The position numbers and the translations under genes are program-made. 64,000 nucleotides of DNA from Aequorivita echinoideorum (GTDB lineage Bacteria > Bacteroidota > Bacteroidia > Flavobacteriales > Flavobacteriaceae). The stretch is from NCBI RefSeq assembly GCF_018476645.1, contig NZ_JAHCTB010000001.1:62001-126000 (forward strand), read 5' to 3'. This document shows positions 50,920 to 56,548 of the stretch, in pieces. The notes below the pieces were generated by a model that had not been told where the DNA came from, searched no databases, and worked only from the letters and a program-made list of their open reading frames with translations. Positions within the stretch are counted from its first letter, which is position 1. Every line of letters starts with the position of its first letter.

Positions 50920-53900
50920 CTAATCAGCAAGGTTTGTTTTCAGCCAATTGGTGGCTTCTTCTAAATTCATATTTTTTCGCTTAGCGAAATCTTCCACTTG
51001 ATCCTCCTTTATTTTTCCGAGGCCAAAATAGCGCGCCTCGGGATTCGCAAAATAATAGCCCGAAACCGAAGCTGCCGGCCACATGGCCAAACTTTCGGTG
51101 AGCTCCACGCCTATATTTTCTTTAACTTTCAGCACATCCCAAATAGTGAGTTTTTCCAAATGATCCGGACAAGCGGGATAACCCGGCGCGGGACGTATTC
51201 CTTTATATTTTTCTGAAATTAAATCCTCGTTTGTAAGATTTTCTTCAGAAGCGTAACCCCAATATTCGGTGCGCACTTTTTTGTGAAGATATTCCGCAAA
51301 GGCCTCTGCCAAACGGTCCGCCAACGCTTTTACCATTATGGAATTATAATCATCGTGCTCTTTCTCATATTTTGAAGCCAATTCAGCAGTGCCAAAACCC
51401 GTACTTACACAGAAACAGCCGATATAATCTTGAATTCCAATTTTCTTTGGCGCGATAAAATCGGCCAATGCAAGGTTCGGTTTTCCGGTGGCTTTTTGGG
51501 ATTGTTGGCGAAGCGTTCGCAAAAAATAATTTTGAATTCTGAATTCTAAATTTTGAATTATTATATCATCATCATTTACTGAATTTGCCTCAAAAATCCC
51601 AAAGACGGCTCGTGCTTCCAAAAGTTTTTCTGAAATGATTTTGTCGAGCATTTTTTGGGCATCAGCAAATAATTCCGAAGCTTGCGTGCCCACAATTTTG
51701 TCTTTCAAAATATTCGGAAATTTTCCGTGCAGTTCCCAGCTTCTGAAAAAGGGCGTCCAATCGATGTAATCCTTCAAAATATTCAAATCGAAATCCTTCA
51801 AAACCTGCACACCCAATTGTTTCGGTTTTTTTATTACCGCGGAATTCCAATCAATTTGGAACTTGTTTTTTCGAGCTTCCTCGATTGAAACATAGGTTTT
51901 TACGGTTTGCCTTTTCAAAAAATCGTTTCTGAAAACTTCATATTCCCTTTTCAGATTTTCTTTGTACGAAACTGACGTTTCCTTTTTCAATAAATCGCCA
52001 ACCACAGTCACCGCCCGGGAAGCGTCATTTATATGAACCACCGCACATTCGTACTCGGGATCAATTTTTACGGCCGTGTGTGCTTTGCTTGTGGTTGCGC
52101 CACCAATCAATAACGGAACTTTGAAATTTTGGCGTTGCATTTCCTTCGCCAAAAAGACCATTTCGTCCAACGAAGGCGTGATCAAACCGCTCAAACCAAT
52201 GGCATCCACGTTTTCCTCTTTTGCGGTTGCGATTATTTTTTCGGGCGGCACCATCACGCCCAAATCAATTATTTCGTAATTGTTGCACGCCAAAACAACG
52301 CCCACGATATTTTTCCCGATGTCGTGAACATCGCCTTTTACGGTTGCCATTAGTATAACTCCTGCCCCCCTGCCCCCCGAAGGGGAGTTCTGTGGATTAC
52401 TTTCTGAGGAAAGTTCTTTTAATCTTTTAAAAATTGTCTCGAGGACTTTATCTGTATTTTTGAATACTTCTTCATTTGTAAAACGGATTACTTTATATCC
52501 TTTTTTTTCAAGCCACTCTGTTCTTTCTCCATCTTTTAGCTTGTGTTCTGGAAGCTGATGTATTAGTCCATCGATTTCAATTATTAGATTTTTCTTTAAG
52601 CATATAAAATCTGCTATGTAGGAGCCGATAATATGCTGTCTTCGAAATTTATAGCCTTCAAGATTTTTTCCGCGTAATAAATTCCACAATATCCTTTCGG
52701 CATCTGTGGGTACACTACGCATTTTTTTTGCAAAATCCTTCATCAACCCATAGAGCATTGGGTCTGCCGTCTTCCAATTATAAGTTCTTTTATCAGATTT
52801 TTTTTCGTCCAGTTGGAAGCTCCCCCCTTCGGGGGGCAGGGGGGGCTTTATGTAAGGAAGCAAGTACGCCACGGCTTTTTTCATCACGCGCGCACTTTTC
52901 ACCACTTGCGGCAAAAACATTTTCCCGCTTCCGAAGAGGTCACCAACCACGTTCATCCCCATCATTAAATGGCCCTCGATTACCTCAATGGGTTTTGAAA
53001 CGCTAATTCTGGCTTCTTCGATATCTTCCAAAATAAATTCGTCGATTCCCTTTACCAAAGCTCTGGTAATACGATCTTGCAACGGTTCTTCGCGCCACGA
53101 AAGATCGATTTTACTTTCCTTTGAAGTTCCTTTTACGGTTTCGGCAAAATCGAGCAGGCGTTCCGTAGCATCATCGCGACGGTCGAGCATAACGTCTTCC
53201 ACGCGTTCCAATAGATCTTTCGGAATATTATCGTACACCTCCAACAGCGCAGGATTTACAATGCCGATATTCATTCCCGCTTTAATGGCGTGATACAAAA
53301 AAACGGAATGCATCGCTTCCCGCACGGGGTCATTTCCCCGGAAACTGAAAGAAACATTGCTCACGCCCCCGCTCACGCTCACGTGTGGCAGATTTTCCCG
53401 AACCCAGCGCGTGGCTTCAATAAAATCGATTGCGTTTCGGCGGTGCTCGTCCATTCCCGTGGCGACGGGAAAAATGTTAAGATCGAAAATGATGTCTTCG
53501 GGAGCGAATTTTACTTGATTCACCAAAATATCATAGGAGCGTTTGGCGATTTCAATTCGTCTTTCGTAATTGTCAGCTTGGCCCACTTCATCAAAAGCCA
53601 TTACGATTACCGCGGCACCGTAGCGTTTTATGCGTTTTGCGTGATGGATAAATTCGGCCTCGCCTTCCTTTAAACTGATGGAATTCACCACACATTTGCC
53701 CTGCACCACTTGCAAACCGGCTTCGATAATTTCCCACTTACTGCTGTCAATCATAATGGGAACGCGTGAAATATCGGGCTCTGCGACAACAAGATTTAAG
53801 AATTTCACCATCGCCTCTTTGCCATCGATCAAACCATCATCCATATTCACGTCGATGATCTGCGCGCCATTTTCCACTTGCTCGCGGGCCACGGAAAGCG

Positions 53901-54075
53901 CTTCCTCAAAATTCCCTTCTTTTATCAATCGAAGAAATTTCTTTGAACCTGCCACATTGGTGCGTTCCCCCACGTTTATAAAATTGCTTTCGGGGGTTAT
54001 TATAAGCGGTTCTAAGCCAGATAATTTTAAATATCTTGGTTGTTGGTTGATAGTTGATGGTTGATCGGCTTTCAT
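50920..54075 (-). CDS. metH: Methionine synthase large part (MetH2) interrupted in frame by a DUF559 domain
   Basis: The cobalamin part of a split MetH, 1051 residues against about 890 expected. Domains: pterin-binding ([19 protein letters not shown], residues 30-290), B12 cap (330-408), inserted DUF559 endonuclease-like ORF (409-573), B12-binding with GDVHDIGKN (about 581), and SAM-binding activation domain with [12 protein letters not shown]. The N-terminus [13 protein letters not shown] is read from a 7-bp repeat, and [12 protein letters not shown] (about 838-849) from another. All intrusions keep the frame. Whether the enlarged enzyme works is not known, but the frame is intact over 3 kb, so it is probably functional. 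Coupled to the upstream four-helix gene by TAATG. Confidence 0.93.
51528..51562. repeat. Heptamer tract translated inside MetH2
   Basis: Units AATTTTG, AATTCTG, AATTCTA, AATTTTG, AATTATT. On the minus strand they encode [12 protein letters not shown] between the ANSVNDDDI and [10 protein letters not shown] motifs of the activation domain, a surface-loop position where family members normally have unrelated residues. Confidence 0.85.
52357..52849 (-). mobile_element. DUF559 endonuclease-like ORF inserted in frame in metH2
   Basis: Residues 409-573 of MetH2 match a whole DUF559 (Vsr-like, PD-(D/E)xK) protein: [53 protein letters not shown] and [16 protein letters not shown], ending [11 protein letters not shown]. 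Its edges are inverted GC-rich palindromes: CCCCCCGAAGGGGAG at 52373-52387 and CTCCCCCCTTCGGGGGG at 52820-52836. The insert lies in the linker before the B12 domain. Stand-alone DUF559 proteins of the same sequence type are common in Bacteroidota. Not an intein: no splicing residues at the borders. Confidence 0.85.
54038..54065. repeat. Heptamer tract encoding the MetH2 N-terminus
   Basis: Units GGTTGTT, GGTTGAT, AGTTGAT, GGTTGAT. They encode residues 4-13 of MetH2 ([10 protein letters not shown]). Confidence 0.85.
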
Positions 54076-54428
54076 TATAATTTTTTGTAATATTTAATAA
54101 ATCCGTTCAACAATTTTTTACAACTTTCAATTTGAGTATTGATTTCATTTAATTGACTTTTATTTATGAAATCTTGATCCAATGCTAAAAATAATTGTGT
54201 TTCCAATTCATATAAAGAACCTCGTGAGATATATAGAAATTGAATTGTGTCTTTGGAAGTTCTTCTCCCACAACCTTCTGCAATATTTGATGGAATAGAA
54301 ACAGCGCACCTTCTTATTTGGTTTGTCAGACCATATAATTCCTCTTTCGGAAAACTTTTCGTCAATTCATAAGTTGAGTTGACCAATTCCCGAGAAAATT
54401 TCCATACATCCAAATCCCTATATTCCAT
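54075..54428 (-). CDS. Four-helix-bundle protein (IVS family) upstream of metH2
   Basis: A 117-residue helical protein of the same family as the ORF in the dcw cluster: [59 protein letters not shown]. Motif [12 protein letters not shown] is typical of the IVS four-helix-bundle family. The two copies in the window are only distantly similar. It shares one base with metH2 (TAATG) and lies between heptamer tracts at 54038 and 54558. It separates the dehydratase gene and metH2 in a methionine operon where it has no expected role. Confidence 0.92.
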
Positions 54429-54557
54429 TATTTGGTTATTTGTTTTTTGTTGAAGGTTGATGGATTTTCATTTTGATATTTATTAAACCGTTTATATTTC
54501 TAATCTAATTTTACTAATCTATATTGCTATTAATATGTTGGTTCCTAGAATATTTCC

Positions 54558-54599
54558 ATCAACCAACAACTATCAACTATCAACCAACAACAATCAACT
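54558..54599. repeat. Heptamer tract between the dehydratase and four-helix-bundle genes
   Basis: Six units: ATCAACC, AACAACT, ATCAACT, ATCAACC, AACAACA, ATCAACT. It is the reverse complement of the unit type at 54038, so the four-helix gene is bracketed by inverted copies of one repeat family. The dehydratase stop codon (TGA) lies at its edge. Confidence 0.9.
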
Positions 54600-55538
54600 A
54601 AAAGGCAGATTTTTTAAATCCACATTTCCCCCAGAAATGATAATTCCTATTTTTCTATTTTTAAAGCATTCCTTTTCCCGGAGTAATGCCGCCAAAGGAA
54701 CCGCACAGCTCGGTTCCACGATTATTTTCATCCGTTCCCAAATCAGTTTCATTGCGGCAATGATTTCGGTTTCTTCAACTCTAATTATTTCAGAAACCAA
54801 TTCTTTAATGATTGGGAAGTTGATATCGCCCAGAAACGTTTTCAGTCCATCGGCAATGGTGTTTGTGGTCTCGTTGAATTCTATTTTTCCAGATTGAAGG
54901 CTTCGGAATGCGTCGTCAACCGCAAACGGTTCGCCACCGATTGTTTTACAGTTTTTTCCAAAATAATACGCCGAAAGTGATGTTCCGGCAATCAATCCGC
55001 CACCGCCAACGGGTGCGAAAACATAATCCAAATCGGGGTGTGATTGCAACAGTTCCGCGGCCGAAGTTGCATTGCCCAGAATCACATTTTTATCGTTTGA
55101 CGGATGGATAAACGTCGCACCCGTTTCTTTTTGAATCCGTTCAGCCTCAGTTTCCCTAGCAATGGGTGTTGATTCCGATTCGGTGATAATTCCGCCGTAA
55201 CCTTTAACCGCTTCCTTTTTCACTTGCGGCGCGTTTTCAGGCATTACGATATACGCTTTTACGCCAAGATTTTTTGCGGCCAACGAAAGTGCCTGCGCAA
55301 AATTTCCGGAGGAATGCGTCACAACACCCGCTTTTTTCTGTGCTTCGGAAAGTTGCAAAATGGCATTGGTTGCACCTCGCATTTTAAATGCACCCATCTT
55401 TTGGAAATTTTCACATTTGAAAAAAACCTGGGCGCCGGAAAGTTCATTCATATAGGAAGATTTCAAAACAGGCGTGTTGTGAACGTATGGCTTTACGCGC
55501 GCGCAGGCCGCTTCAACTTCTTGTTTTGTGGGTATCAT
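54594..55538 (-). CDS. PLP-dependent threonine/serine dehydratase-like protein
   Basis: A 314-residue fold-type II PLP enzyme of the serine racemase/threonine dehydratase group. Lys-binding segment FKMRGATNAILQL (PLP Lys), SSGNFAQALSLAA, glycine loop APVGGGGLIAGTSL, and ISGGNVDL at the end. It lacks a regulatory ACT domain, so it is catabolic-type. It overlaps metH1 by 4 bp and lies between metH1 and metH2, an odd place for this gene; it may connect serine/threonine use with one-carbon supply, or be a passenger. Confidence 0.9.
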   Translation of the reverse strand: MIPTKQEVEAACARVKPYVHNTPVLKSSYMNELSGAQVFFKCENFQKMGAFKMRGATNAILQLSEAQKKAGVVTHSSGNFAQALSLAAKNLGVKAYIVMPENAPQVKKEAVKGYGGIITESESTPIARETEAERIQKETGATFIHPSNDKNVILGNATSAAELLQSHPDLDYVFAPVGGGGLIAGTSLSAYYFGKNCKTIGGEPFAVDDAFRSLQSGKIEFNETTNTIADGLKTFLGDINFPIIKELVSEIIRVEETEIIAAMKLIWERMKIIVEPSCAVPLAALLREKECFKNRKIGIIISGGNVDLKNLPFS

Positions 55539-56548
55539 ACAGCAAGATTTTCAGATTGCAAAATGGGTCGCGGTTTGTATTGTGAAGCGATTTCGGCAAT
55601 CGCTTTAATATGTTCAGGTGTGGTGCCGCAACAACCGCCTATGATATTTACCAACTGCTTGTCCAAATATTCCTTAACCTGCGAAGCCATTTGTGACGGA
55701 CTTTCATCATATTCGCCGAACGCGTTTGGCAATCCCGCATTTGGGTAGGCGCTCACGGCAAGATTGGTGCGGTTTGCGATCACTTCCAAATGGGGCGTGA
55801 GCTGTTTGGCGCCCAAGGCACAATTGAAACCCACGCTCATTAATGGAATGTGCGAAATGGAAATCAAGAATGCCTCTGCGGTTTGGCCGGAAAGCGTGCG
55901 TCCGGAAGCGTCCGTTATTGTTCCGCTTATCATTATGGGAATGTCGAGATTTCGTTCTTCTTTTATTTCATCGATGGCAAAAAGCGCTGCTTTCGCATTC
56001 AATGTATCAAAAATGGTTTCCACCAAAAGAATATCCACGCCGCCGTCAATCAAGGCTTCGCTTTGTTGTTTGTAAGCAACGCGCAATTCTTCAAAAGTAA
56101 TGGCTCGGAAACCGGGATCGTTTACATCGGGGCTCATACTCGCGGTCTTGTTTGTGGGGCCAATGGCGCCGGCCACAAATCGTGGTTTGTGCGGTTCTTT
56201 GGAAGTGAAATCCTCAGCGACTTTTTTTGCGATTTTGGCAGATTCAAAATTGAGTTCATACACCAAATCCTGCATATCATAATCGGCCATTGCGATTGTG
56301 GTGCTGGAAAAAGTATTTGTTTCCACAATATCGGCACCCGCGGCGAAATATTTTGAATGGATTTCGGCAATTGCCTGCGGTTGGGTAATTGAAAGCAAAT
56401 CGTTATTTCCCTGCACCGATTTATGAAAATCCTTAAAACGTTCTCCACGAAAATCTTCCTCGGAAAATTTATAGCGCTGGAGCATTGTGCCCATTGCGCC
56501 ATCGAGGATCAATATTCGGTTTTGCAGTGCTTGTTGTATGTTATTCAT
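55535..56548 (-). CDS. Homocysteine S-methyltransferase part of methionine synthase (MetH1)
   Basis: The first MetH module as a separate 337-residue protein: MNNIQQALQNRILILDGAMG, TNTFSSTTIAMADYD, and zinc-ligand cysteines in GFNCALGAKQL and IIGGCCGTTPEH. It binds zinc-activated homocysteine and would dock with the B12-carrying MetH2 encoded downstream. Split metH is common in Bacteroidota, normally with adjacent halves; here a dehydratase and a four-helix-bundle gene intervene. A SAM-I riboswitch precedes it, so high SAM should shut off the operon. Confidence 0.95.
   Translation of the reverse strand: MNNIQQALQNRILILDGAMGTMLQRYKFSEEDFRGERFKDFHKSVQGNNDLLSITQPQAIAEIHSKYFAAGADIVETNTFSSTTIAMADYDMQDLVYELNFESAKIAKKVAEDFTSKEPHKPRFVAGAIGPTNKTASMSPDVNDPGFRAITFEELRVAYKQQSEALIDGGVDILLVETIFDTLNAKAALFAIDEIKEERNLDIPIMISGTITDASGRTLSGQTAEAFLISISHIPLMSVGFNCALGAKQLTPHLEVIANRTNLAVSAYPNAGLPNAFGEYDESPSQMASQVKEYLDKQLVNIIGGCCGTTPEHIKAIAEIASQYKPRPILQSENLAV

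Follow-up and report, generated by a model that had tools for sequence, protein, structure and literature searches.

A DUF559 domain inside methionine synthase

How a core enzyme comes to hold a whole endonuclease-like protein within its own reading frame is the question raised by the metH2 gene of Aequorivita echinoideorum. We analysed this gene in a stretch of 64,000 nucleotides (hereafter, the window, whose first letter is position 1). Methionine synthase is split in the window into a homocysteine part (55535-56548, labelled by reading) and MetH2, a MetH without the homocysteine domain (50920-54075), both of which are encoded on the minus strand. In the ORF list of the window, the MetH2 frame is open throughout and forms one ORF of 1051 aa with the insert in frame. 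Pfam assigned Pterin_bind to residues 36-274, B12-binding_2 to 333-405, DUF559 to 446-552, B12-binding to 573-666 and Met_synt_B12 to 764-1035, placing DUF559 between the cap and cobalamin domains. The DUF559 match (PF04480; 52420-52740, minus strand) had an E value of 4.1e-37 and 126.8 bits against a curated cut-off of 20.6, and DUF559/MTES_1575 was the only domain content of the insert. The initial annotation had described MetH2 as about 160 residues overlong, with a complete DUF559 protein read in frame in the linker ahead of the cobalamin domain. The domain order confirmed that position, and 163 extra codons were found (52360-52848, minus strand; KPPLPPEGG...SPSGGRGAG), which clean alleles of the genus lack and which agree to within one codon with the coordinates first given (52357-52849).

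Inteins begin with Cys, Ser or Thr, end in His-Asn and contain a splicing domain. The insert begins with K-P-P and finishes with G-A-G before V, in line with the earlier remark that intein splice residues are absent, and neither Pfam nor NCBIfam found a splicing domain in MetH2, so that an intein was rejected. A group I or II intron was also rejected, as the region 52000-53300 gave no Rfam match at E ≤ 1 and the frame is open through the insert. The same holds for a DDE insertion sequence, since the insert contains no DDE transposase and no target duplication was seen by eye in the MetH2, IleRS and RecG junctions read. A defence-system search (PADLOC) gave weak matches only. A profile search with PF04480 found no second close DUF559 copy in the genome; the other match (C11:371530), which we take to be a Vsr-like gene, lies among unrelated genes and was rejected as a further copy. 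As for the idea that the domain loops out of the linker, a structure model of the whole MetH2 was weak (pLDDT 61, pTM 0.36); DUF559 lies in it between two very-low-confidence stretches (residues 410-443 and 558-569), as linkers would, while the model was too weak to settle the domain placement.

Filled, shortened and empty alleles

The genus sample consisted of 28 genomes, 22 with a MetH2 match and 21 with a gene readable at the insertion site (L111 was left out). At this site (site 1), 15 of the 21 genes had a clean linker, four (L104, L108, L109 and L112) had a short in-frame palindrome pair made of two arms and a short spacer, and two, those of the window and of genome G312 (L094), had DUF559. 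The empty target to be sought by alignment with close relatives therefore exists in MetH2, and clean alleles of IleRS and RecG were found too; the possibility that all MetH2 homologues share the domain was disproved by the count of 2 in 21, and a frame error or misassembly is unlikely, given that G312 shares both the insert and its position.

In another genus, the IleRS genes of 12 genomes included three filled and eight clean alleles and one allele in which another kind of palindromic insert occupies this loop. The RecG genes of 12 genomes of that genus included four filled, three clean and five shortened alleles; among the latter, that of G333 retains both ends in frame without DUF559, and the other four have a left-end-like segment only. 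The carriers of filled IleRS and RecG were different sets with one genome in common (G248). MITE-like short forms keeping both arms were thus seen in the MetH2 of L104, L108, L109 and L112 and in the RecG of G333. The shortened alleles would be decay products, and the short two-arm forms would derive from the full element. The filled MetH and IleRS alleles have about 10 host-loop residues fewer than the clean ones, and therefore the insert in these enzymes is not a clean addition.

Two side observations concern the same genes. In L204 (IleRS of G326), a different palindromic element occupies the loop that contains DUF559 in sister species. A second MetH2 site (51523-51564, minus strand) is hypervariable, with other short in-frame segments across the genus and DUF559 nearby in L054, L132, L148 and L159; by eye, at least four repeat types (IQNSEFRIQN, IPNPKSQIPN, CQSELVEDP and PPLGARG) were seen there across species in L091-L112.

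Other host enzymes and spread of the element

DUF559 matches were found in 112 of the 299 genomes of the family. Among the matches listed at 50% identity or more (28), 27 lay in ORFs of at least 573 aa, whereas the more distant of the matches listed were mostly in short ORFs. In a scan of named genomes, at least 579 stretches were confirmed, and the best 80 of them were used, the selection having relied on motifs that contain some of the conserved residues; by title, 79 of these 80 loci were from Bacteroidota and one from a Nitrotoga MAG (L141). The latter may be a binning error because its MetH groups with Flavobacterium. Carriers of the insert in MetH include Winogradskyella sediminis and Flavobacterium cucumis.

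The search for other host genes with DUF559 in frame, which the initial annotation had proposed, yielded 17 different enzymes with an internal insertion, four of which are related synthetases and nearly all of which are in Bacteroidota. Internal hosts whose model was matched in at least two stretches were MetH, LeuRS, IleRS, ValRS, MetRS, RecG, UvrA and IcmF, and further adenine deaminase, CinA, PaaZ, an ABC-F ATPase, RdgB, WecB and a WbcJ-like reductase; for a LegC-type aminotransferase and AroC, the model was matched on one side and the other side was read by eye. Terminal DUF559 domains were found at the C-terminus of HisD and at the N-terminus of HemD, IspF, guanylate kinase and RNase H. 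Most MetH copies (36 of 42) were at site 1, and two copies occurred in one MetH ORF in L054, L132 and L159. A phage origin of the element was rejected: phage records gave 3 matches among 50,697, all below 40% identity, and L234, itself a ValRS with an insert, was the one locus among 72 on viral contigs to attain 50% identity. This ValRS (IMG/VR contig) contains DUF559 and, downstream, a short palindrome pair (PLSPPEGG...SLGGVGGG), that is, full and short forms in one gene.

Because of the comparison with clean alleles and the many hosts, we regard the insert as a mobile element, not as a one-off fusion; its mobility is apparent from the comparison itself. Specifically, the reading that we favour, and consider likely, is that the insert represents one copy of a homing-like mobile element of about 480 nt, organised as terminal inverted repeat (TIR), DUF559 nuclease and TIR, which is read through inside coding sequence without splicing. 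The parallel drawn initially, with homing or palindromic elements that persist inside a core enzyme as one of its domains, is supported by the empty sites, the 17 hosts and the fold related to a homing endonuclease, with the qualifications that MetH2 is a single case within a wide family and that filled MetH and IleRS are not clean additions.

Fold, conserved residues and selection of the domain

The domain has a Vsr/EDxHD-like fold, as predicted by an AF2 model of the DUF559 domain (pLDDT 79), whose structural matches were 3hrl (E 2.6e-8), I-Bth0305I (E 1.7e-3 and 2.8e-3) and, more weakly, Vsr; phmmer with the domain gave 3hrl (E 1.6e-20) and 3r3p (E 0.027). The catalytic-type residues are intact in the window's copy. 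Of 109 in-host rows, 108 had the full set of five residues, E39, D68, E79, D81 and H85, and one, L086, did not. Since the named loci had been picked by motifs that include conserved residues, the family set, which was not drawn by motif, gives the fairer count, and 40 of its 41 rows were intact at the five residues. Conservation and family membership suggest that these are the catalytic residues.

The dN/dS of the insert was 0.077 for the pair of the window and G312 and ranged over 0.072-0.085 among the IleRS pairs, higher than the 0.02-0.05 of the hosts; two Aquimarina pairs gave 0.04 and 0.14 for the insert, at near-saturated dS (pairs L114-L118 and L149-L153 were left out, and two pairs had no dS). 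As judged by these comparisons of coding sequence, purifying selection acts on the DUF559 domain, whose conserved residues are retained.

Palindromic ends and the question of the mobiliser

From TIR to TIR, the element spans 52365-52844 on the minus strand, 480 nt or 160 codons, a multiple of three. The two arms, at 52824-52844 on the N-terminal side (within the PPLPPEGG codons) and at 52365-52385 on the C-terminal side (within the SPSGGRGA codons), are complementary at 21 of 21 positions, so the inverted GC-rich palindromes noted at both edges prove to be a perfect 21-nt inverted repeat. Their core CCCCTTCGGGGG, allowing one mismatch, occurred three times in the window, two of these being the element arms, against a mean expectation of 0.10 and with three or more occurrences in none of 100 shuffles. 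A solo palindrome of the element's family lies at 1679-1699, reading CCCCCTAACCCCCAAAGGGGG on the minus strand. In the whole genome, the 20-mer palindrome with up to three mismatches gave 10 matches, including the two arms, versus none for the reversed control. Two short in-frame family palindromes without DUF559 were observed in a LeuRS ORF of this genome (L014; G000:C11:343378 and 343797) and one in an AspRS-like gene, both genes being named by eye.

Around the DUF559 matches in general, the inverted repeat beat all 60 shuffles in 61 of 124 matches (121 loci), where about 2 would be expected, and no significant TIR was found by this test in the other 63. The recurrent arms have a common skeleton like GCCCCCTAACCCCCRAAGGGGGA. 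Such repeats were present in 11 of 12 short ORFs and in 47 of 109 long ORFs without stops, and because of this difference it looks as if resident in-host copies lose their arms. Three of 12 free-standing copies examined have start and stop between the arms (L090, of the same genus, L146 and L168). The palindrome pattern was present in 31 of the 299 family genomes, compared with none for the reversed control. Palindromes beyond the elements' own arms were found in 12 of 32 genomes with in-frame DUF559 versus 16 of 267 genomes (p 2.7e-6), and in 11 of 80 genomes with free-standing DUF559 alone versus 5 of 187 (p 0.001); both tests treat genomes as independent, leave out genomes with own arms only and use lists compiled by hand.

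These associations bear on the best-surviving alternative, which is that a palindromic element is moved in trans, e.g. by Y1/RAYT transposases, with DUF559 as a passenger or helper instead of the mobiliser. The genome of the window does contain two Y1_Tnp genes that could move palindromes, one of them fused in frame to HemF, and in other bacteria REPs accompany Y1 transposase genes, as stated in PMC3733652. However, the two Y1 loci lack the CCCCC-GGGGG palindromes and the hairpins there differ, the solo palindromes associate with in-frame and with free-standing DUF559 in the above tests, and DUF559 has retained its conserved residues. We therefore consider mobilisation in trans unlikely compared with a self-mobilising TIR-DUF559-TIR element.

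Other arrangements in this genome were observed alongside. The Y1/RAYT-like transposase at L195:319-1863 (G000:C20) is in frame at the N-terminus of the coproporphyrinogen oxidase HemF. Next to metH2, a gene for a 117-aa four-helix bundle (TIGR02436; 54075-54428, minus strand; region 54036-54591) is flanked by 30-nt arms that are 90% complementary, at 54036-54065 and 54558-54587. The former arm lies inside metH2, over its codons 4-13, and thus a second kind of TIR-flanked ORF abuts this gene. The arm resembles the TTGATGG heptamer arrays of the genome, and for the pattern of the arm the reversed control was high (102 vs 27).

Movement and inheritance of the inserts

A tree of the domain was built from 124 of 125 DUF559 matches (L089 was left out). 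The domains cluster by host site, requiring 30 host-site changes where the floor is 22 for 23 sites, in a tree of low resolution (starred branches, 9 of 121). The second-site copy of L054 pairs with its own first-site copy (support 92) among the site-1 copies. A Flavobacterium clade (support 99) mixes site-1 and site-2 copies of MetH and stands apart from the main site-1 clade (support 95), which makes two or more separate invasions of site 1 probable. In an AU test with 34 of the 36 site-1 carriers, the DUF559 data rejected the host MetH topology (p 2.3e-6), for which several independent insertions could be an alternative cause.

Between the window and G312, identity at 4-fold sites was 0.84 in the insert and, on its two sides, 0.48 and 0.53; codons were identical at 114 of 137 positions of the insert versus 428 of 708 of the host (p 1.7e-7), and the composition-corrected 4-fold distance was 0.18 versus 0.80. 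The insert of the window is far less diverged from that of G312 than the host genes are from each other. Classic homing co-converts the flanks. Here, the identity peak ends near the insert borders, so that long co-conversion was not seen. The IleRS pairs showed the same direction as MetH2, more weakly (p 0.046, 0.002 and 0.0036). In three RecG pairs (the fourth filled allele, L231, was left out), the insert was not less diverged than the host (p 0.23, 0.92 and 0.027), and RecG, considered as a further example of recent insertion after MetH2 and IleRS, was rejected. A Winogradskyella pair (p 0.016) was left out of the result, its insert bounds being too wide (229 codons). Since inserts of MetH2 and IleRS are less diverged than their hosts and those of RecG are not, it seems that periods of movement alternate with periods in which the elements stay in place. 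The less diverged inserts and the clustering at the same site suggest indirectly that the element may cleave the empty allele and so drive its own copying; the RecG result argues against this.

The same data also speak to a second alternative, in which the insertions are ancient, were inherited vertically after recruitment as functional domains of the host enzymes, and have been lost repeatedly. The RecG inserts, which diverge about as their hosts do in one genus, the clustering of domains by host site and the purifying selection on the domain would all fit such a history. It does not readily account for one domain in 17 different enzymes, the patchy distribution within genera, a MetH insert less diverged than its host, the rejection of the host topology among site-1 carriers, or shortened alleles that stay in frame, and we judge it to be rather improbable, somewhat more so than mobilisation in trans. 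A mobile element with its own nuclease is the explanation that we keep.

Probable read-through of the insert

Stop codons are informative on what becomes of the insert at expression. Among 82 matches, the 68 in-host matches contained no stop, and 8 others have stops; three of these 8, with long readings and one or two stops in the domain (L178, L179 and L182), were left out of the in-host rows. In the 299 family genomes, the listed in-host matches contained no stops. A third alternative is that the segment is skipped or removed by ribosomal bypassing or by mRNA or protein splicing, leaving a normal host protein. In its favour, the GC-rich inverted ends could pair in the mRNA, and splicing elements are often accompanied by homing nucleases, as described in PMC3943268. 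Bypassing, however, would not demand the open frame seen in all 68 in-host matches, and for splicing there are neither intein ends nor Rfam matches at E ≤ 1 in 52000-53300, so that we hold this explanation to be very improbable. An assembly or frame artefact, for which nothing speaks beyond the oddness of the arrangement, can be set aside, as the same insert occurs at the same site in G312 and dozens of other host fusions exist.

Under the favoured reading, it is in-frame read-through that would let the element be tolerated within coding sequence. The TIRs would serve as Pro/Gly-rich linkers, with the predicted nuclease folding to the side of an enzyme that still works. Nothing would splice the element out, unlike an intein or intron, and the nuclease domain would be expressed at full length with its host enzyme, hidden in a gene that cells do not easily lose. 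The nuclease, of the Vsr/EDxHD-like type, may cut or nick empty alleles, whereupon repair would copy the element in, amounting to homing to the same loop, and occasional jumps would take it to new genes.

Comparison with known elements

The closest known kinds of element are the Rickettsia palindromic elements (RPEs) and the EDxHD homing endonucleases, and the present element works like a cross of both. According to PMC3733652 and PMC10969869, RPEs and coding REPs/MITEs are palindromic, lie in frame in unrelated genes and are read through as peptide, and the latter source gives a size of about 150 bp and a conserved peptide for RPEs. Our element is likewise palindromic and in frame in unrelated ORFs, but it measures 480 nt, contains a complete nuclease-type domain and is found in Bacteroidota (79 of the best 80 named loci), instead of being a short conserved peptide of about 150 bp in Rickettsia. 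With EDxHD/Vsr-like homing endonucleases such as I-Bth0305I, it shares the fold, the conserved catalytic-type residues, same-site insertion in many species and a tree discordant with that of the host; in PMC9403480, a DUF559 gene is assigned to the EDxHD family. As noted in PMC3943268, genes for homing nucleases frequently reside within introns or inteins that splice, whereas no splicing partner was found for our element, its domain stays in the reading frame and its activity is predicted. Because the element lacks a defining feature of RPEs and its homing activity is a prediction, we file the element under neither kind.

Inteins with an endonuclease domain also place a nuclease-type domain in frame inside a core enzyme, but the element has no splicing residues or domains. 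REP/RAYT systems (REPtrons) also combine palindromes with a partner enzyme, and this genome has its Y1_Tnp-HemF fusion; in our element, a Vsr-like nuclease domain takes the place of the Y1 transposase as partner. In the literature searched, where coverage of subscription papers was thin and bioRxiv was not included, we found no description of DUF559 in frame in host enzymes, which agrees with the initial statement that no description of this combination was known.

Significance of the element

Splicing is the usual explanation for why mobile nucleases are tolerated inside genes. The element appears to manage without splicing inside synthetases, RecG, UvrA and MetH, and it points to a route by which selfish DNA could become new protein domains. 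To a wider proposal we give about an even chance, namely that a phylum-wide selfish class parasitises proteins without splicing: a nuclease flanked by palindromes whose translation provides linkers would home into loops of essential enzymes, stay as a permanent side domain, spread between species by cutting empty alleles and decay to short coding palindromes. Full, short and clean alleles coexist in the RecG and the MetH of single genera, and the element may in this way be a source of short coding palindromes. If such a phylum-wide selfish class exists, it would account for how the in-frame coding palindromes of these genomes arose.
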